From the NCBI GenBank assembly GCA_031261285.1, contig JAISKM010000065.1, positions 1-35,379 on the forward strand: a stretch of 35,379 bases of DNA, written 5' to 3'. Position numbers and translations under genes: made by a program. This document shows, piece by piece, positions 1,223 through 35,379 of this stretch (the first letter of the stretch is position 1; each line of letters starts with the position of its first letter). The notes under the pieces were generated by a model. It ran no database searches and was not told where the DNA came from. It was given only the letters and a program-made list of their open reading frames with translations. The DNA comes from Candidatus Symbiothrix sp. (GTDB lineage: Bacteria; Bacteroidota; Bacteroidia; Bacteroidales; Azobacteroidaceae).

Positions 1223-1354
1223 TTAGTAACTGTCAGTATATTTTAAGATGCGTCTTCCTATCTTAGCCAACTCATCATATTTATTGCAAATGTCATTTGC
1301 CGTTTGATTTAGATCAGTAACGACCTCATTGTATAATAATTTTTTGACTTTCAT
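1223..1354 (-). CDS. Small hypothetical ORF, 43 residues
   Basis: Too short for the ORF track. On the minus strand an ATG at 1354, inside the end of the BspA-like gene (29-base overlap, different frame), opens a 43-residue frame that starts MKVKKLLYNE and ends LKYTDSY. The composition is protein-like, mostly charged and helical, without signal peptide or membrane segment. It fills the only gap in this minus-strand gene run. It could be a translationally coupled small protein, the remnant of a longer gene, or chance. No family is recognised. Confidence 0.35.
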   Translation of the reverse strand: MKVKKLLYNEVVTDLNQTANDICNKYDELAKIGRRILKYTDSY

Positions 1355-2627
1355 TATTCACTTTCACAATATAAACACCCTTATTCAAAAGAATCTCAGC
1401 ATTTCCGTTAATAGTTGATTGATAGACTTTTTGCCCTGAAATGTTGACTATCGAAATAAGCGTTGTCTCTTTTGTTGCAATCGCTATACCGTTTGCAATC
1501 GTATTGATTGCGATTTTGTCTTTACTTATTGTGTTGATTGCGGTGGCATCCTCCTCAATAATATTGACAAAATCGCCCCAACCGACGGCAAGCCAATAAG
1601 TACTATAAGAGCCTTTTGGAACATATAAATTTGCAAGTTGTTTTATTGTCACAGAAAATTCATAACTAGCTATTTTTGGTGGAGTTGGATTTTTGCAGTG
1701 TATTTCTGTTAATCCTGTACAGTCCTGAAAAGCACTAGGAAACGAAAAAGCTCCAATCGAAGTTACGCTAACAGGAATAATAATAGAAATTAAACCTGTA
1801 CACCTTTGAAATGCAGCAGCTCCAATTGAAGTCACGCTATTTGGAATCGTATAAGTAGTTGCTTTTGCATTAGGATAAGCGATTAAAGTGGTTCTGTCTT
1901 TATTGAACAATACGCCATCTATTGTAGAATAATTTGCATTTTCTCCTAAAACAATAAATTCTTTCAACCCTGTACAACCCCGAAAAGCAGTAGCTTCAAT
2001 CGAAGTTATATTCTTAGGAATTTTAATTGCAGTTAATTTCGTACAACTTTGAAAAGCACTACTTCCAATCGAAGTTACGCTATTTGGAATAATAACTGAT
2101 GTTAAACCCGTACACCCCTGAAAAGCACTACTTCCAATCGAGGTCACGCTATCTGGAATAATAACTGATGTTAACCCTGTACAACCCTGAAAAGCAGCTG
2201 TTTCAATCAAAATCAGACTATTTGGCAAAATCACAGAAGTTAATCTTGTACAATTATAAAAAGCAAATTCTCCAAAGGAATTATTAGAAGTAGAAGAAAA
2301 ATTATTGCCGGAATGATAATAAGCTCCTCCTCCGCTAATAATATTTGCGTCTGCTAAATTAAGAATTGTCAATTTCCCATTTGTTGCATTTCCTATATAA
2401 TCACGCCCAGCCATTTCACGAATATACCGTATGTCTATTCCATTCAAATTGCCAGTTAGCGTTAAATTGATAATTTGATATTTTTTGCTTTCTGCAATGA
2501 AAGAAGATAATGACCCTGCATTTTCTACATGAATAGTAATAGATGGGACATCTTGTGCCTGTAAATTGAATGATAGCAATAAACCGATTATTGCCAATAA
2601 TGATTTGAATGTTGTTTTTGTTTTCAT
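1326..2627 (-). CDS. BspA-type leucine-rich-repeat protein with T9SS sorting tail
   Basis: The 433-residue protein starts with a Sec signal peptide (MKTKTTFKSLLAIIGLLLSF, cleavage after LQAQ). Residues about 118-325 hold tandem LRR_5 units of the form LTSVIIPxSVTSIGSSAFQGCTG, the BspA/TpLRR type seen in adhesins of Bacteroidota and Treponema. One unit is interrupted by a stretch near LFNKDRTTLIAYP, a common variant in this family. The last 60 residues, ISIVNISGQKVYQ to YIVKVNNESQKIIIQ, look like a type A sorting domain for type IX secretion, so the protein is probably exported across the outer membrane and attached to the surface. The gene starts 25 bases after the upstream membrane-protein gene. 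Surface binding is a family inference; the ligand is unknown. Confidence 0.87.
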   Translation of the reverse strand: MKTKTTFKSLLAIIGLLLSFNLQAQDVPSITIHVENAGSLSSFIAESKKYQIINLTLTGNLNGIDIRYIREMAGRDYIGNATNGKLTILNLADANIISGGGAYYHSGNNFSSTSNNSFGEFAFYNCTRLTSVILPNSLILIETAAFQGCTGLTSVIIPDSVTSIGSSAFQGCTGLTSVIIPNSVTSIGSSAFQSCTKLTAIKIPKNITSIEATAFRGCTGLKEFIVLGENANYSTIDGVLFNKDRTTLIAYPNAKATTYTIPNSVTSIGAAAFQRCTGLISIIIPVSVTSIGAFSFPSAFQDCTGLTEIHCKNPTPPKIASYEFSVTIKQLANLYVPKGSYSTYWLAVGWGDFVNIIEEDATAINTISKDKIAINTIANGIAIATKETTLISIVNISGQKVYQSTINGNAEILLNKGVYIVKVNNESQKIIIQ

Positions 2628-2652: not shown

Positions 2653-3366
2653 TTATCTGCTTAATTTTGAAAGTTCAAGATTTAAGTATCCAATTACTTG
2701 TTGAGAAAAGTCTTCTATGGATTCGGATGATATATCTTTTCCTATCGCTGTAAAATTAAAAATACCATTTGATAATTGTGAGATGTGTATGATTATATGA
2801 ATGTATTTGCTCCTATCTTCTTGCTTGTATTCAATAGAAAATAAGTAATATTCTGTAGAGTGTATTTCTATTGACATATTATTATCAATATCACCTGCTA
2901 TTTTTGACCAAATACGACCCGCTAATTCTGCATATTTTCTATCATTAGGATTTTTAGAATTATATTTAGTTTTTAGATTATTCTCATTCTCAAAAGCATC
3001 AAGATTTTTTTCAAACACTTTTTCTAAGTTTTCGGATGTTTTGGATTCGCTATCCAATTTAAAGTTAATGAATGGGTTTTTATTAAACAATAATTTTTGC
3101 ATTTCAGGTGAATATTCTGAAGGAGAGTATAATTTTGCATGATGACAAACAACGAGATAAGCAAAAACACCAAGAAGCAATAGAGGAAATGCAATTATAA
3201 ACCAAATAACAGGAAGCCTCTCACTGTTTGTGGTTAAATAAGAAATATTTGAACTTAAAGTAATTGACCCTAAACCGTACAAAAGGGATATAAACAATGC
3301 AATTATTCCTAAAGGATTCCTTGTGAAATTCTTTGCAGACTTGACAAATTCAGATGTCTTATACAT
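2653..3366 (-). CDS. Hypothetical two-helix membrane protein
   Basis: The ORF track begins at 3468, but its first 34 residues are read from the 3' part and spacer of the structured RNA upstream, so the ATG at 3366 (MYKTSEFVKSAKNF) is preferred, giving 237 residues. Two hydrophobic segments, near NPLGIIALFISLLYGLG and VIWFIIAFPLLLLGVFAYLVV, are separated by a short polar loop. The remaining about 150 residues form a soluble, charged domain with alternating strands (YYLFSIEYKQ, YIHIIIHISQ). No family is recognised. It is the first gene after the RNA element whose U-tract ends 49 bases before this start codon, so its expression may depend on read-through of that element. Confidence 0.6.
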   Translation of the reverse strand: MYKTSEFVKSAKNFTRNPLGIIALFISLLYGLGSITLSSNISYLTTNSERLPVIWFIIAFPLLLLGVFAYLVVCHHAKLYSPSEYSPEMQKLLFNKNPFINFKLDSESKTSENLEKVFEKNLDAFENENNLKTKYNSKNPNDRKYAELAGRIWSKIAGDIDNNMSIEIHSTEYYLFSIEYKQEDRSKYIHIIIHISQLSNGIFNFTAIGKDISSESIEDFSQQVIGYLNLELSKLSR

Positions 3367-3413
3367 ATCTATAGTTTTTCCACCGTCCTGTCCCCTCGTT
3401 CGGCAATTTTTAA

Positions 3414-3645
3414 ATAAAAAAGAAGCATGGGATCTGTTATATCTTATTCCGGTTAGAGGCTCTGACAAAGCCTGACGATGGAATAAGCAAACGGTCCCAT
3501 GCCTCTTGTTTACAAAGACATGGAATATTTGCCTATCACCCTCATCGTCATTTTGAAACTGTCAGATTTCTAACCGAGGATAATATTATAAATACTTCTA
3601 ATCTAAAATGTCCTTCCGAAGTCCAACGCTTTGAACGTTCGGAAT
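3414..3645 (-). ncRNA. Structured RNA, copy A: 5' hairpin plus long bulged rod and U-tract
   Basis: This fills most of the gene-free stretch 3367-3810. Downstream of the minus-strand promoter at 3651-3681 the RNA would open with a hairpin (TTCCGAA 3614-3620 with TTCGGAA 3638-3644), then a GGACATT linker. A long imperfect rod follows: AGAAG 3421-3425 with CTTCT 3595-3599, GGTTAGA 3451 with TCTAACC 3569, TCTGACA 3461 with TGTCAGA 3560, TGACGATG 3473 with CATCGTCA 3543, and GCAAA 3487 with TTTGC 3528, with an asymmetric 9/5-base internal loop. It ends in CTTCTTTTTT. A mutually exclusive fold exists: GCATGGGA 3425 with TCCCATGC 3495 enclosing CTTATTCC 3443 with GGAATAAG 3480. Compared with copy B it shares GAAATCT-GACA(A/G)TTTC on the 5' arm, GTCA-GA-CCTC on the 3' arm, and the GACATT linker. 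A 6S-like small RNA is one possibility; identity is not established. Confidence 0.65.
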
Positions 3646-8630: not shown

Positions 8631-11600
8631 TTAATTTTTAATTACTTTCACTTGTTTTCCATTAACTTTCAGGATGTATGTGCCTCGTTTCAAGGTAGAT
8701 AAGTCGAGCGTCGTTTGCTTTTCGGCTGCTGAAAATTGCTGCACTAATTGTCCGTTTATGTTGTAAATTTCAATTTTATCGCCGGCTTGGATGCTTGCGT
8801 TTTCAACCGTGACGGTGCCGGAGGTTGGATTGGGGTAACTTTTGAGTGTGCCATTACCCAGTTTGACGGGGCAGGATTGGAATTGTTGCCCATTTTGTGT
8901 GGTCAGGCGAACGGAATAGTCTGCATCATAATCCTTGCCGGTTGCAAAATACAAATTTCCGGATGTTTCGCCCGCCATATCGACGCCATTCCGCTGCCAT
9001 TGATACGCCACAAAGGTGTGTCCGCCATTGCGCGCAGGGTCGTTGATCACCGACAGCACATCGTCCCAAACCTGCACCACCAGATTGGGCAGGCACGATT
9101 GTTTGAAACTGACGGCAATCGTGTGATTGGCGGTCACATTCGTAAAGATGTAACTGCCGCTTGAAACGGCACCCGCATTATTCACGCCGTCTATCAGCAC
9201 CTGATTGATTTCGTAATAGGTAGTTGGTGTGAACGTGAACGGTTGACTGTTCCCGTGATTAACGGTTTGGTCGGTTGCCGGCGAAATACTGCCGTTAGCA
9301 CCGGCCGAAACACTGATGGTGTATTGCTTTTGCTTGAACGATACCGAAATGGTATGATTGGCAGTGACATTCGTAAACGTATAACTACCCGCCGAAACCG
9401 CCCCCACATTATTCACGCCGTCAATTAACACTTGACTGATTTCATAACCCACATTTGGCGTAAAAGTAAACGTCTGACTGTTTCCGTGCGCAACAATTTG
9501 ATTAGAAGCCGGCGAAATCGCGCCCCCACTTCCCGCCAACACGCTAATCGTGTAAGTATTTTGTATTGCTCTTGCTTGCAAGGTTCTTGCTGCGGTTACG
9601 CTGAAACTGTAAGATTGAAGATTAGAAACTTTTGTAGCACCCTCATACCAACCGTCAAAAGTGTAACCATTTTGGACTGTACAATCAACGGTTGCGGTAG
9701 CACCTGAATTGTAAGTGCCGGAACCTGTTGTGGTGGAGATTCCTGTACCGGATTGGGTTATGATAGTGTATTGGTTTAGTTTGAACGATACGGCAATCGT
9801 ATGAGAAGCCGTTACATTCGCAAAGGTATAACTGCCGGTTGAAACGGCATCGGTATTATTCACTCCGTCTATTAAAACTTGGTCGATTTCGTAACTTGTA
9901 TTAGGCGTAAAGGTAAAAACTTGATTGTCACCATGTGTCACAGTTGGATTAGGTGGTGAAATAGTGCCATTAGCTCCTGCCGACGTCGTGATAATATAAG
10001 TCTTTTGTGTTGCTTTGGCTTGCAATGTTCTCGCTTCAGTCACAGCAAAACTGTAAGATTGATTGCTTGATACTTTTGTAGAACTTTCATACCACCCGTC
10101 AAAAGTGTAACCGCTTTGCACGGTGCAACCAACGGTTGCGGTAGCACCTGAATTGTAAGTGCCGCTACCTGTTGTGGCAGAAATGCCAGTGCCGGATTGA
10201 GTTGTGATAATGTATTGTGTTGGCGGATTTTGTATCGCTCTTGCCTGCAATGTTCTTGCTGCGGTCACAGTGAAACCGTAAGATTGATTGCTTGATACTT
10301 TTGTAGAGCCTTCATACCAACCGTCAAAAGTGTAGCCGCTTTGCACAGTGCAGCCAACGATTGCAGTCGTACCAGAATTGTAAGTGCCGGAACCTGTTGT
10401 AGATGAAATTCCTGTGCCGGATTGGGCAGTGATTGTATATTGTTTTAATTTAAAAGTTACAGAAATGGTGTGATTTGCAGTTACGTTTGAAAACGTATAA
10501 CTGCCATTTGCAACCGCTGTGGTATTATTCACGCCGTCAATTAACACTTGATTGATTTCATAACTACTATTAGGCGCAAAAGTAAACGTTTGACTATTTC
10601 CGTGTATCACGATTTGATTAGAGGATGGTGAAATATTGCCGCCACTTCCTGCGGAAACGGTAATGGTATATTGTTTTAATTTAAAAGTTACAGAAATGGT
10701 GTGATTTGCAGTTACGTTTGAAAACATATAACTGCCATTTGCAACCGCTGTGGTATTATTCACGCCGTCAATTAACACTTGATTTGTGGCATAACCACTA
10801 TTAGGTGTAAAAGTAAAAGTTTGGCTATCGCCTTGATTAACTGTTACGTTACCACTTGGGGAGATAGCACCATTACTTCCTGAGGATGCTGTAATGGTAT
10901 ATGTTTGAATGTTTTGCTGTTGGTATTTAAAAACAGGTAATCCCTGATTTGCAGAACCACTGTTTGACATAGCCCAAATAGTACTAAAGTCCCAGCCTAA
11001 ATTAGATTCAATCCATGGTTGTGATTGAAAAGAAGATAATTCCATGTCCTTTCCATCTTTTCCAGTAACATCTGTACTGCTTACTGTTGCACCATTTAAA
11101 ATTATTGTTGATAGTGCATAACAATCGGATATAGAAAGTTGTAAAACATCACTTGCTGTTATTCTCCCTACATAAGAAATATAATCACCACTATTTACGG
11201 TTGCAGTTATACTTGCATTTGCAACAAAACAATTTTTGATAGAGTTTTTAGAAGATCCATTAGAGGGCCTAGATCCGCAAATACCTCCTGCATAAGGATA
11301 ATACGAAGTTGAAGAGGAAATATTACCAAAATTATAGCAATTTGAAATTTGACCATAGAAAGACGCACCAGAAATTCCACCTGCATTAGCAGCAGATTTA
11401 GAAGCATCCGCAGAAATAGTACCGATATTATAGCAATTAGAAATTGGCAAATAATAAGTATCGCCACAGATGCCCCCTGCAGAAGCAACTGATGTGATTA
11501 TTGTAGAAGTAGTCGAAGCTGAAATATTGCCCTCATTATAACAATTTAAAATTGAACTACTAATAACGACTGAATTATCACAATAGGCAGAACCACAAAT

Positions 11601-13157
11601 ACCTCCTGCATACGCCGTCCCTGAGTCTAATGGTTTTCCCGATGATAACGCTGTAATATTTCCTAAATTGTAGCAATCTAAAATTGATTTTGAATCTGAA
11701 TAGGTATAAACTGCATACCCACAAATTCCCCCAATATTGGATTGTATTAAGGATGATGCGGAAATAGTTCCTAAGTTATAGCACTTAGAAATTGCACTTG
11801 ATATAGATTGTCCGCAAATACCTCCAAAATCATGGTAATTTGATGGGGTTGATGTTGAAATACTCCCTAAATTATAACAATTTGAAATTGAGCATTGATT
11901 AGCATCTCCACAAATACCACCAGCATAATTAACTGAAGTTGTAATTGTTGCCGTATTAGAACAATAACTTATTGTTGAATTCTTGGCTGCTCCGCAAATG
12001 CCACCTATTGATCCAGATGAAGCAGATAGAGTTCCTTTTACCGCTAAATTTTGGACGGTAGCATTAGATAAATATCCAAATACACCGCGCGTATTGTTTA
12101 GTTCAATTTCATGTTTTCCACCATCAAAAATTCCGCTAAATGGTTTAGTGTCGGAATTGCTGATAAATGTAGTTAATGCATTTGAACCTGTTAAGTCATT
12201 AGTAAGCAAAAAATACTTGCCGGAATAGGTCGTGCCACTATTTACCGAAGTAGCCAAAGTTTCCATATCTGCTTTGCTGGAAATCAGATAAGGCGATGTT
12301 TGTGTACCCGAGCCACCACTGTATGCAGGGAGTGTGTTTATTTTGAATGTCACAGAAATCGTATGATTAGCCGTGATATTAGTAAAAGTATAACTGCCAT
12401 TTGAAACGGCATTGGGATTATTTACGCCGTCTATTAGCACTTGGTCAATTTCGTAGCCTGTATTTGGCGTAAAAGTAAATATTTGACTACCGCCATGATT
12501 AATGGACACACTGCCACTTGGCGAAATATTGCCGTTGCTTCCTGCGGATGCTGTCATAGTGTATTGACTTGATGGTACAAACTCCATAATATTTGAGAAG
12601 TCTTTCCATTGTGTCGCTACTCTGTAGGTCGATACTGAACCTGTTGGCACATACAAAGTGCAGGTATTTTTATTAACAGAGGAAAAGACACCTTCACCTA
12701 AAAGTGCAGGAGTGGCATTATGAACATATATGGAGGTAAGAGAACTGCAATATTGAAAAGCACCAGGTCCAATGCGTGTAACGCTGTTGCCAATGGTAAC
12801 AGAGGTGAGACCACTGCAAGACCGAAAAACAGTCTCCCCAATTTCTGTAACACTGTTAGGAATGGAAATAGTGGTAAGACCGCTGCATCCTAAAAAAGCA
12901 GAAGCCCCAATACTTGTAGCACCCGTGTTGATGACCACTGTATTAATAGCAGAGAGGGAAGAATACCAAGGTAAAGTATTCTGAAAATAATAATTTGTCA
13001 TTGTGCCTGTACCGCTAATGGTAAGGGTATAGTTTGAGGAAGTACCGCTAAGCGTCCATATGAGGTTAGCCCCGCAAGAGCCGGTGTCTACGATTTGAGC
13101 AAATGTGCTTATTGTTGAAAAGAAGCAAATAAATAAAGTAATTAATATTTTCTTCAT
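8631..13157 (-). CDS. Giant secreted surface protein: LRR, GLUG and InlB-like repeats with T9SS tail
   Basis: The 1508-residue protein begins with a signal peptide ending STFAQ. In order it holds: BspA-type LRR_5 units (about residues 70-170, AINTVVINTGATSIGASAF); a first divergent InlB-B-like repeat (YTMTASAGSNGNISPSG); a GLUG-rich beta-helical region (about 280-720, units like GGICGxAxxxxISNCYNLGxIS); then a tandem run of two repeat types. Type A (GSNGxISP...QVLIDGVNN) occurs six times in total; type B (QSGTGISxTTGSGTYNSG) three times. The end, LKSYPNPTSGTVTVE to YILKVNGKQVKVIKN, is a type A sorting domain for type IX secretion. It is probably a surface adhesin. Its ATG lies only 3 bases after the DUF2971 stop, suggesting coupling to the genes upstream. 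Confidence 0.9.
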   Translation of the reverse strand: MKKILITLFICFFSTISTFAQIVDTGSCGANLIWTLSGTSSNYTLTISGTGTMTNYYFQNTLPWYSSLSAINTVVINTGATSIGASAFLGCSGLTTISIPNSVTEIGETVFRSCSGLTSVTIGNSVTRIGPGAFQYCSSLTSIYVHNATPALLGEGVFSSVNKNTCTLYVPTGSVSTYRVATQWKDFSNIMEFVPSSQYTMTASAGSNGNISPSGSVSINHGGSQIFTFTPNTGYEIDQVLIDGVNNPNAVSNGSYTFTNITANHTISVTFKINTLPAYSGGSGTQTSPYLISSKADMETLATSVNSGTTYSGKYFLLTNDLTGSNALTTFISNSDTKPFSGIFDGGKHEIELNNTRGVFGYLSNATVQNLAVKGTLSASSGSIGGICGAAKNSTISYCSNTATITTSVNYAGGICGDANQCSISNCYNLGSISTSTPSNYHDFGGICGQSISSAISKCYNLGTISASSLIQSNIGGICGYAVYTYSDSKSILDCYNLGNITALSSGKPLDSGTAYAGGICGSAYCDNSVVISSSILNCYNEGNISASTTSTIITSVASAGGICGDTYYLPISNCYNIGTISADASKSAANAGGISGASFYGQISNCYNFGNISSSTSYYPYAGGICGSRPSNGSSKNSIKNCFVANASITATVNSGDYISYVGRITASDVLQLSISDCYALSTIILNGATVSSTDVTGKDGKDMELSSFQSQPWIESNLGWDFSTIWAMSNSGSANQGLPVFKYQQQNIQTYTITASSGSNGAISPSGNVTVNQGDSQTFTFTPNSGYATNQVLIDGVNNTTAVANGSYMFSNVTANHTISVTFKLKQYTITVSAGSGGNISPSSNQIVIHGNSQTFTFAPNSSYEINQVLIDGVNNTTAVANGSYTFSNVTANHTISVTFKLKQYTITAQSGTGISSTTGSGTYNSGTTAIVGCTVQSGYTFDGWYEGSTKVSSNQSYGFTVTAARTLQARAIQNPPTQYIITTQSGTGISATTGSGTYNSGATATVGCTVQSGYTFDGWYESSTKVSSNQSYSFAVTEARTLQAKATQKTYIITTSAGANGTISPPNPTVTHGDNQVFTFTPNTSYEIDQVLIDGVNNTDAVSTGSYTFANVTASHTIAVSFKLNQYTIITQSGTGISTTTGSGTYNSGATATVDCTVQNGYTFDGWYEGATKVSNLQSYSFSVTAARTLQARAIQNTYTISVLAGSGGAISPASNQIVAHGNSQTFTFTPNVGYEISQVLIDGVNNVGAVSAGSYTFTNVTANHTISVSFKQKQYTISVSAGANGSISPATDQTVNHGNSQPFTFTPTTYYEINQVLIDGVNNAGAVSSGSYIFTNVTANHTIAVSFKQSCLPNLVVQVWDDVLSVINDPARNGGHTFVAYQWQRNGVDMAGETSGNLYFATGKDYDADYSVRLTTQNGQQFQSCPVKLGNGTLKSYPNPTSGTVTVENASIQAGDKIEIYNINGQLVQQFSAAEKQTTLDLSTLKRGTYILKVNGKQVKVIKN
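10441..10783. repeat. Near-identical internal duplication in the giant surface protein gene
   Basis: The roughly 113 bases starting at 10441 (TGTTTTAATTTAAAAGTTAC...) recur from about 10671 with a single visible mismatch, while other copies of the same repeat in this gene are much more diverged. This shows a recent tandem duplication or gene conversion between two type A repeat units. Confidence 0.8.
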
Positions 13158-19252: not shown

Positions 19253-19816
19253 TTATTGATTATCTAATTTTTTCATTTCTTCGTCAAACACTTTCTTAAA
19301 TTGCTGTTTGTCGAAATCCAACTGCAATTTGGAATCTTTTGAAATACGGTCGGCAATTTTGTTTGCAATAATTTCCTTACTCATTTCGATGGCAATGTAG
19401 TAGGTATAGTTATTTTTATTTTGAAAAACTTTGTCACCGATAATTTTCACATCGTTTAATGATTGATTGACAACCAAAATCGCATTTTCTTCAAATTTAT
19501 TTTCAAACTCCTGTTTGTCTGCCACCGACCGTTGGTTGGTGTACGCTTCCGTAACAGTCTTCACCGTGGTTTGAACATTACTTGCCAACTCCGTTTTGGC
19601 ATTGGTCAACGCAATTTTCTTTGCCGTCGCCAAATTGGGGCTGATGCCGGATTGTGTAGCCCGGAAAAAATCTTTAGTCGAGCGATACTCCTTGTCCGCA
19701 AATGGTACCACAACTTCCGTTGCGCCCTGTTCAACCGCTACTTTTTTACTTTTGCAACCCGTCACCATGACACCTGCACATACTGCTATTGCAGTGAGAA
19801 CCAAAATTTTCTTCAT
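19253..19816 (-). CDS. LPP20-like envelope lipoprotein
   Basis: A lipoprotein signal peptide with Cys21 in MVTGCKSKK anchors this 187-residue protein in the envelope. The rest is an alternating helix-strand domain with ATAKKIALTNAKTELASNVQTTVKTVTEAY and a late YYIAIEMSKEIIANKIADRIS, the pattern of LPP20/LpoB-type lipoproteins found before TPR or PEGA proteins in Bacteroidota. The C-terminus is charged and helical. It is the first gene of the operon continuing with the large exported protein and the PEGA/Sel1 protein, all envelope-directed. Its start codon lies 57 bases after the U-tract of structured RNA copy B, so the RNA could be a leader controlling this operon. The exact function is unknown. 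Confidence 0.8.
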   Translation of the reverse strand: MKKILVLTAIAVCAGVMVTGCKSKKVAVEQGATEVVVPFADKEYRSTKDFFRATQSGISPNLATAKKIALTNAKTELASNVQTTVKTVTEAYTNQRSVADKQEFENKFEENAILVVNQSLNDVKIIGDKVFQNKNNYTYYIAIEMSKEIIANKIADRISKDSKLQLDFDKQQFKKVFDEEMKKLDNQ

Positions 19817-19872
19817 TTGTCTTTTATTTTTTAATTTATATTAGTATTTATCTAACTTTCATTTTTGGACAT

Positions 19873-20120
19873 AAAAAAGCGCGGACAAAACTCAAATCAT
19901 TTGTTTTTATGAGGTTCTTGACTACCTTGACAATCAAATAATGAGTAAAGCCCACGCCAAACGGCGTGAGCGTCATCACTTTACTCTTGATTGTCAATTG
20001 AAATTGTCAAGATTTCATAAAAACAAGATGTAAGCTAAACGCTTTTCCAACAATGTCTCAATGTGCATATCAGCACATTATGTGTTTTATATCATAAGCA
20101 AAAATTATTTCGTATTAATA
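19873..20120 (-). ncRNA. Structured RNA, copy B: AATGTG hairpin, long rod and U-tract
   Basis: This occupies most of the 417-base gap 19817-20233. Reading the minus strand: GCTTATGA, a 7-bp hairpin AATGTGC/GCACATT (20060-20079) with loop TGATAT, a GACATTG linker, then AAAAGCG (20040-20046) closing on CGCTTTT (19875-19881) which runs into six U residues. Inside is a rod: TTGTTTTTATGA 19901-19912 with 20015-20026 (12 bp), CTTGAC 19917 with 20006, TTGACAATCAA 19927-19937 with 19987-19997 (11 bp), GAGTAAAG 19943 with 19979, and a CACGCC-aaac-GGCGTG cap. Copy C at 34724 has the same order of elements, including GCTTACATCTT, GACCTCAT/GAACCTCAT and GCGCTTTTTTATGTC, with stem bases changed in a compensatory way. 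No coding capacity is apparent. Confidence 0.8.
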
Positions 20121-34686: not shown

Positions 34687-34717
34687 TTTGATAATTCAAA
34701 AATTGTGTTTATCTTTG
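34687..34717 (+). promoter_or_regulatory. Bacteroidota promoter for structured RNA copy C
   Basis: TTTG (34687-34690), 19 bases, TATCTTTG (34710-34717): an exact consensus. It lies 54 bases after the helicase stop with no protein start nearby, so it serves the RNA. Transcription is expected near 34724. Confidence 0.78.
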
Positions 34718-34723
34718 CCACCA

Positions 34724-34976
34724 AGTTTAATAATAAAAAAGTAAAAATAGGCTTATGACATAAAATAATGTGTTGATACGCACATTGTAAGACATAGTAG
34801 AAAAGGCGTTTTTCGCTTACATCTTTGTTTGATGAAACCTGAGAAATTTCAAGAACAGCAAAGAGTAAATGAAGACGGTCACGTTTCGGCGCGAATCGGA
34901 TTCTGTTTATTTGGCTGTTCGGGTTTCTCAGGACCTCATCAAAGCAAATAAATTTGAATCCGGTTGGCGCTTTTTT
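34724..34976 (+). ncRNA. Structured RNA, copy C: AATGTG hairpin, long rod and U-tract
   Basis: This occupies half of the gene-free stretch 34633-35140. In order: GCTTATGA (34751), hairpin AATGTGT/GCACATT (34767-34786) with loop TGATAC, AAGACATAG, AAAAGGCG near 34801 closing on CGCTTTTTT (to 34976), then a rod: TTTGTTTGATGA 34824-34835 with TCATCAAAGCAAA 34936-34948, CCTGAGAAA 34838-34846 with TTTCTCAGG 34924-34932 (9 bp), and GAACAGC 34853 with GCTGTTC 34914. Copy B has TATGA/TCATA and CTTGAC/GTCAAG at the same places, so the stems are kept while the bases differ. The 69-residue ORF 34869-35078 in the track overlaps the rod and is not credible. It may be a free small RNA or a leader of the gene at 35141. 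Confidence 0.82.
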
Positions 34977-34996
34977 ATGTCTGTATGTGAGATATT

Positions 34997-35076
34997 CCCC
35001 CTTGCAGGGTTTGCAGTTCGTTTTGTTTTCGTTTCATTTTTTCGTTCGTTCAGATCGTGCAGGGGGAGTTTTTTTT
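34997..35076 (+). terminator. Terminator-like stem with long loop after RNA copy C
   Basis: CCCCCTTGCA (34997-35006) pairs with TGCAGGGGG (35058-35066), one bulged base, followed by AG and eight T residues (35069-35076). The loop of about 50 bases is T-rich. It separates RNA copy C from the gene at 35141. Confidence 0.6.
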
Positions 35077-35140: not shown

Positions 35141-35379
35141 ATGAAAAGAAATGTATTATTGTTATTGGCTGCTACGTTGTTGGTAGCCGGTAAGTGGTCA
35201 CCGGTAACTGCCCAAGTGGCTATTGGTGGCGACGGCACTGTGACACCGGGTGCGTTGTTAGATTTATCACAAGCCGTTGATGCCGGCGGCTTGTTGCTGC
35301 CACAAATTGAGAGTGCCGATACACTCTCTGATGAGTTAAAAAAGCCGGGCATGCTGGTTTACAACAAAACGGACGGCAA
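35141..35379 (+). CDS. Truncated exported protein (N-terminal 79 residues)
   Basis: An open frame from the ATG at 35141 runs off the right edge; it is absent from the ORF track. It starts with a Sec signal peptide (MKRNVLLLLAATLLVAG, processing probably after SPVTAQ). The mature N-terminus, VAIGGDGTVTPGALLDLSQA then GGLLLPQI and ELKKPGMLVYNKTDG, is the conserved opening of Bacteroidota exported proteins that often continue into FISUMP or tail-fibre-like domains. The rest is not visible, so the function is open. It lies downstream of RNA copy C, a terminator-like stem and an AATGGTT repeat, so its expression may depend on read-through. Confidence 0.8.
   Translation, partial: MKRNVLLLLAATLLVAGKWSPVTAQVAIGGDGTVTPGALLDLSQAVDAGGLLLPQIESADTLSDELKKPGMLVYNKTDG

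Follow-up and report, generated by a model that had tools for sequence, protein, structure and literature searches.

The window analysed here, a 35,379-nucleotide stretch of DNA from Candidatus Symbiothrix sp., carries three copies (A, B and C) of a structured RNA. In the reading that we favor, to which we assign a probability of roughly 0.6, each copy serves as the 5' leader of the gene that follows and acts as a two-state transcription attenuator. Comparison of sequences establishes a rod-shaped fold, a second set of pairings that excludes the rod, a U-tract, a promoter and a position before genes.

If this reading is correct, the family would represent an important level of gene control that has been overlooked: a phylum-wide leader, reaching more than 100 copies in a single genome and absent from Rfam 15, in Bacteroidota, which are dominant in gut, soil and water habitats. 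The leader precedes genes for surface proteins, TonB-type nutrient receptors, sigma factors and regulators, the control of which is poorly understood in Bacteroidota. It also occurs in genetically tractable species, which makes the attenuation model open to immediate testing.

Copies in the window and distribution of the family

The copies and the genes that follow them are located in the window as follows.

34748..34986, + strand: leader RNA core, copy C, a full match to the family model (R1 210.8 bits; R2 176.0 bits, E 5.6e-26)
35141..35379, + strand: gene 3' of copy C, encoding a signal-peptide protein (MKRNVLLLLAATLLVAGKWSPVTAQVAIGGDG...) and cut at the window end
19863..20102, - strand: leader RNA core, copy B (R2 203.4 bits, E 2.9e-30)
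19253..19816, - strand: gene 3' of copy B, encoding a predicted lipoprotein (MKKILVLTAIAVCAGVMVTGCKSKK...), with its start 46 nt past the RNA
3408..3645, - strand: leader RNA copy A, a divergent third copy (R2 76.3 bits, E 2.2e-10)
2653..3366, - strand: gene 3' of copy A (MYKTSEFVKSAKNFTRNPLG..., 237 aa), with its start 41 nt past the RNA

Pfam gave no match for the lipoprotein, the 237-residue protein or the fragment of the gene behind copy C. Elsewhere in the window, 8631-13157 (-) and 1326-2627 (-) encode large secreted proteins that contain BspA-like leucine-rich repeats; one of these proteins (1508 residues) ends in a sorting-domain-like tail, as judged from the translations.

Two copies alone are weak evidence for a conserved structure, and the set was therefore enlarged. 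A blastn search with copy C against its own genome returned dozens more copies, which were fetched with their flanks; 39 were aligned and used to build a covariance model (R1), and a second model (R2) was built on 56 diverse copies. A search with R1 indicated approximately 100 leader copies in the 2.83-Mb draft of the window's genome (the 'home genome'). Many of them are no more than a few hundred bases from a contig end (for example on contigs C111, C26, C37, C56, C45 and C80); the assembly therefore probably breaks at these repeats, and the true number in the genome is probably higher.

Among genomes sampled from the order, R2 matched 114 of 295, and in a sample taken across the phylum it matched 37 of 296; both are lower bounds owing to the stricter filters applied to many genomes. 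It found 106 copies in Candidatus Symbiothrix sp. Hs463_bin62, a congener of the home genome, and 78, 54, 50 and 33 in further genomes of that genus. It found 26 in one genome of another family, 6 in Chryseobacterium pennae and 3 in Flavobacterium johnsoniae strain CI04. From its kinship with Hs463_bin62, we infer that the window probably derives from a Bacteroidales bacterium of the termite-gut type. An exact-pattern scan of 84,980 species returned at least 80 loci; among the matches listed (80 loci), all were Bacteroidota or MAG records, and R2 confirmed 79. All named matches to the family are Bacteroidota. The same pattern had no match in 2.9 million viral contigs, and a viral origin of the RNA was set aside.

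Covariation and variability of the rod

The helices of the rod, and the hairpin that precedes it, are placed as follows.

20023-20015 / 19912-19904, - strand: rod-base stem of copy B, TTTTTATGA / TCATAAAAA (read in the sequence)
34828..34835 / 34936-34943, + strand: rod stem P3 of copy C, TTTGATGA / TCATCAAA (covariation)
34838..34846 / 34924-34932, + strand: rod stem P4 of copy C, CCTGAGAAA / TTTCTCAGG (covariation)
34853..34859 / 34914-34920, + strand: rod stem P5 of copy C, 5' arm / 3' arm (covariation)
34767..34786, + strand: hairpin H1 of copy C, AATGTGT-TGATAC-GCACATT (fold prediction)

The initial annotation had described compensatory changes between copies B and C, and every stem pairing that it named is found in the sequence where it had been placed. 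These include the second stem, which is CTTGAC / GTCAAG in copy B and the P4 pair listed above in copy C, and the 5' hairpin AAUGUG(C/U)-UGAUAY-GCACAUU, which closes with C-G in B and with U-G in C. Relative to shuffled sequence, the folding z-scores are -7.2 for copy B and -4.9 for copy C.

In the 39 aligned copies from the home genome, 96.0% of the cells in the rod helices are paired, as compared to 38-50% after displacement of the 3' partner by 1-3 columns; double-change cells number 254 as compared to 30-47. The same holds for 80 copies from named Bacteroidota recovered by the exact-pattern scan (97.0% paired versus 34-43%; 636 double-change cells versus 74-127). Because both alignments were fitted to the model, we added an unsupervised test, in which APC-corrected G statistics were computed for every pair of columns among 100 diverse sequences and compared with a null of within-clade column shuffles. 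The family-wise 95% level was exceeded by 21 column pairs, of which 19 are rod pairs of the model, one extends P3 and one adjoins the apical hairpin. The inference from B and C that selection acts on RNA structure is thus borne out by the 39-, 80- and 100-sequence sets, well beyond the two original copies, and an absence of significant covariation in a larger alignment, the outcome that would have refuted it, did not occur. The covariance model aligned two helices poorly, namely H1 and P1 (the closing helix of the rod, which sequesters the U-tract), so that column counts are too low there; alignment-free permutation tests instead indicated within-copy pairing for both (z -9.8 for the H1 region, which pairs with itself, and -3.6 for P1).

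Stems P3, P4 and P5 are hypervariable. All four Watson-Crick pairs are used at nearly every position, pairing is 91-99% Watson-Crick, and wobble cells make up 1-4% of these stems as compared to 10-18% in the remaining helices of the RNA. Between the members of 13 copy pairs that differ by less than 5% in the rest of the core, the stems differ by 34%; of the 81 stem pairs that changed, 78 did so on both sides, and no change was confined to one side. Nine pairs of copies that differ by less than 5% over 250 nt of downstream sequence have stems that differ by 42% (65 of 71 changes two-sided). We regard it as possible rather than probable that these stems serve as copy-specific self-pairing tags; if they do, they would point either to diversifying selection that favors private pairing among more than 100 leaders sharing a genome or to the copying of one arm into the other. 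Recombination between copies is an alternative that we could not exclude. Flanks and RNA modules seem to have been shuffled among loci (upstream sequences may be unrelated while downstream sequences are almost identical), and for that reason we do not claim the rapid change of the stems as proof of diversifying selection or of faster evolution. Stems that are nearly free of wobble pairs and quickly exchanged raise the general question of how paired RNA segments evolve.

In the helices outside the rod, G-U pairs (10-18%) greatly outnumber A-C mismatches (0.8-3.7%), which indicates that selection acts on RNA of the leader's own strand. This asymmetry argues against a DNA-level element, such as a mobile palindromic repeat or a recombination site, of which the RNA structure would be a mere by-product. 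The very high copy number, the dispersal and the many copies near contig ends would suit such an element. The promoter, the U-tract and the place before genes are nonetheless conserved, the viral contigs yielded no match, and neither terminal repeats, target duplications nor a linked transposase was noticed in the flanks that were read. We consider this explanation very improbable.

A second set of pairings and the proposed attenuator model

The conserved segments outside the variable stems form a chain of complementarities (T1:T2, T2:T3 and T3:T4; a':a, a:b and b:c). Those of copy C are located as follows.

34817..34827, + strand: segment T1, partner of T2 in the alternative fold (within-copy duplex test)
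34859..34869, + strand: segment T2, partner of T1 or T3 (within-copy duplex test)
34906..34913, + strand: segment T3, TTTATTTG, partner of T2 or T4 (within-copy duplex test)
34945..34953, + strand: segment T4, CAAATAAAT (within-copy duplex test)
34889..34903, + strand: segment a, the apical 3' arm, GCGCGAATCGGATTC (14 of 15 positions able to pair with b)
34956..34970, + strand: segment b, GAATCCGGTTGGCGC, immediately 5' of the U-tract (within-copy duplex test)
34971..34976, + strand: U-tract of the proposed terminator, TTTTTT (read in the sequence)

These pairings were assessed without alignment, by comparing the duplex energies of segments from the same copy with those of segments from different copies, in three sets of copies (56, 56 and 79 in number, with some loci common to the last two). 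T1:T2 gave within-copy z-scores of -9.5, -10.3 and -11.9 in the three sets, a:b gave -11.9, -9.3 and -8.1, and T3:T4 gave -5.3, -9.9 and -5.8. In the 56 diverse copies, T2:T3 gave -7.5 and b:c gave -4.5. The permutation ignores phylogeny, and control pairings were used to gauge the resulting inflation. Most controls were without a within-copy signal (a:c -0.7; T1:T4 -0.3, -2.7 and -0.5; T1:b -2.4 and -1.7; T2:b +1.6 and +1.8), with one value, for T1:T4, reaching -2.7. In the divergent copy A, segments a (GCATGGGA) and b (TCCCATGC) are both unlike their counterparts in B and C, and the pairing between them is retained.

T1:T2, T3:T4 and a:b are mutually nested, and a:b leads straight into the U-tract. 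T1 adjoins one end of the rod and T2 the other, from which we infer on geometric grounds that T1:T2 and the rod are incompatible. The existence of two covarying and mutually exclusive sets of pairings is thus well supported by the sequence comparisons. The initial annotation had also held that the apical parts of the rod have diverged. Their sequence has indeed changed in the lineage of copy C, but the apical hairpin is conserved across the family and has not simply diverged; in that lineage it changed jointly with a distant 3' segment that is an alternative pairing partner. The structural interpretation offered at that time is therefore supported but incomplete, in that the rod is one of two folds, the RNA is a 5' leader and the family extends across the phylum.

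Mutually exclusive pairings, together with an a:b hairpin that runs into a U-tract, match the way in which the segments of a transcription attenuator are arranged. Fold I (the rod) would comprise stems P3 to P5 together with the T2:T3 helix and the a':a apical hairpin; strand a would be occupied, the terminator blocked, and RNA polymerase would read into the gene. In fold II, pairing of T1 with T2 would free a for b, T3:T4 would also pair, and the long hairpin followed directly by the U-tract would constitute an intrinsic terminator. After readthrough, b may pair with a GGAC-type element (c) just 5' of the start codon. This element lies 3' of the U-tract and is missing or displaced in some copies, including C. 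Termination in fold II, readthrough in fold I, a regulated ratio between the two and the signal that controls it are all inferences, made without transcript or termination data. In ViennaRNA calculations the rod is, on average, more stable than the terminator conformer by approximately 8 kcal/mol, the terminator being favored in only 5 of 56 sequences, and fold II would therefore need kinetic or factor help.

The same architecture could belong to a leader that binds a ligand or protein, with the rod and its conserved internal loops serving as the sensor and the a:b hairpin as the expression platform. The internal-loop segments GAAA, AAUUUC, GGGUA and ACCUC are conserved between the hypervariable stems, and two alternative folds would suit such a switch. 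Those segments are, however, mostly accounted for by their alternative partners (T1:T2, T3:T4, GAAA:UUUC and GGY:RCC), and the regulated genes share no obvious common pathway. We rate this possibility as unlikely without ruling it out. Among unmodelled pairs in the unsupervised test, columns 87 and 226, located in the P2 hairpin loop and on the 5' side of the apical hairpin, ranked first while remaining below threshold (94% paired; GC 53, GT 15, AT 14). This suggests a contact of the P2 loop with the apical hairpin that would be compatible with the T1:T2 fold, and we treat it as a lead only.

Genomic position, minimal upstream ORF and comparison with known RNAs

Two further features of copy C lie near its 5' end.

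34710..34717, + strand: -7 promoter element, TATCTTTG, of the Bacteroidota type TAnnTTTG (read in the sequence)
34755..34763, + strand: minimal upstream ORF, ATG ACA TAA (read in the sequence)

The promoter motif TAnnTTTG is present 5' of 62 of 107 home-genome copies, as compared to 9.2 in shuffled sequences. A U-tract (at least six T in seven near the 3' end) is found in 88 of the same 107 copies (6 when shuffled), in 52 of 57 related copies (1 when shuffled) and in 24 of 29 copies from across the phylum (2 when shuffled); at some 3' ends it is interrupted (L063, L064 and L068). For 136 copies outside the home genome, the next gene is on the same strand in 115 and on the opposite strand in 8, with none assigned in 13. 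This meets the expectation of a same-strand downstream gene for a cis-regulatory leader, and the RNA is accordingly placed as a 5' leader and not as an isolated RNA.

A promoter of its own, a U-tract and a very stable fold would also befit a stand-alone small RNA that acts in trans, for which the terminator would be constitutive and the a:b hairpin simply the normal 3' end; the distance to the next start codon in Flavobacterium-type genomes, often 170-400 nt, is in keeping with this. Such an RNA would not account for the approximately 14-fold excess of same-strand downstream genes, nor for the tight spacing to the start codon in many Bacteroidales copies (mostly 40-70 nt past the RNA in the home genome). 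The b:c pairing moreover extends beyond the U-tract toward the gene, and the copies vary in exactly those stems that a trans-acting RNA should conserve. A stand-alone RNA is thus unlikely, although it cannot be dismissed.

The genes behind the leader are diverse. Of 109 downstream proteins scanned, 35 have a TonB-receptor-type domain and the others vary; in Flavobacterium and its relatives, most copies lie 5' of genes for SusC/TonB-type receptors. In the home genome, most precede secreted proteins of a common N-terminal type, some of which match Big_2 or, weakly, Fib_succ_major, and the remainder precede lipoproteins, Rhs-like proteins, regulators, a vWA-like protein and helicases (judged in part from their N-termini). 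The presence of copies before unrelated genes is better fitted by a regulatory leader than by part of one gene family.

Several copies display additional repeats in their surroundings. Short palindromic inserts (e.g. TGTCATTCCCGCGCAGGCGGGAATCC) occupy the interval between promoter and RNA in L012, L017, L019, L039, L040, L043 and L045, and correspond to REP-like repeats of the home genome. An inverted repeat at window positions 34996-35067 (TCCCCCTTGCA ... TGCAGGGGGA), between copy C and its downstream gene, has counterparts at the equivalent position in L009 and L045; it shifts the start codon from approximately 60 to approximately 150 nt past the RNA and resembles a small inserted repeat. 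A divergent subfamily (L120-L132 and similar copies) has a longer apical insert, and before its start codon a GCCG...AACACGGGAGGC element replaces the usual GGACAAAAC element.

Many Bacteroidales copies start with AUG-X-stop, most commonly AUG AUA UAA or AUG ACA UAA, and translation of this ORF may be the controlling signal of the attenuator in that order. A stop occurs within two codons of the AUG in 43 of 79 non-redundant AUG-bearing copies (13.9 when shuffled, with a maximum of 25) and within five codons in 63 of 79 (30.7 when shuffled; 22 and 31 in the other two frames). The second codon is variable (ATA, ACA, GTA, GCA, AAA and others). Conservation of AUG-X-stop merely through pairing with the U-tract is not supported (z +0.3), and part of the signal could reflect a conserved sequence motif. 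The ORF is absent from several subfamilies and from the Flavobacterium-type copies that were examined, and it therefore cannot be a universal sensor. In copy C its stop lies more than 50 nt 5' of T1; we infer that a ribosome at that stop would leave T1 out of reach, which does not fit control by a stalled ribosome. The lambda bar minigene is AUG-AUA-UAA, the same two-codon form as the commonest ORF of the leader. The latter differs in being the first element of a structured leader, with no known toxicity or effect involving Pth.

The closest analogy is with trp-type four-segment attenuators, of which Bacteroid-trp (RF01692) is an example from Bacteroidetes. In both, a 1:2 pairing and a 3:4 terminator hairpin with a U-tract compete with a 2:3 antiterminator 5' of the regulated gene, and a short upstream ORF is present (for the leader, in many Bacteroidales copies). 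The leader meets the structural expectations, with covarying, mutually exclusive 1:2/3:4 and 2:3 pairings and a 3:4 hairpin directly followed by the U-tract. It does not have a leader peptide rich in codons of the regulated pathway, since its ORF, usually AUG plus one codon and at most five, has no recurring set of amino acids. It differs further in its copy number of more than 100 in a genome, its unrelated targets, its three extra hypervariable stems supporting 2:3 and the absence of an Rfam match. T-box, ANTAR dual-hairpin and LoaP/RfaH-type leaders likewise choose between a terminator and another fold; the RNA described here is set apart from them by its size, its segment order and its phylum-wide dispersal, and no cognate protein has been identified.

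At the gathering threshold, Rfam 15 reported no family in the window and none for the leader element in 40 further loci, and relaxed E-values gave nothing credible for the element. No description of it was found in the literature, for which only open-licence papers were searched, and the family is apparently undescribed to date. Those Bacteroidetes motifs from Weinberg et al. 2010 that Rfam includes are excluded by the lack of an Rfam match, an exclusion that does not cover motifs that never entered Rfam (PMC2864571). Rfp18 of Flavobacterium psychrophilum and other unassigned Flavobacterium RNAs resemble the leader in being structured, conserved and without an Rfam match (the sequences were not compared); they have been described as independent small RNAs acting on protease mRNAs, in contrast to the leader position found here (PMC9723704). 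Within the home Bacteroidales genome, we also observed a match to Acido-Lenti-1 RNA (RF01687) at L040:1024-1068 (+), with 39.4 bits against a gathering threshold of 37, which lies outside the phyla given for that RNA in the 2010 list.
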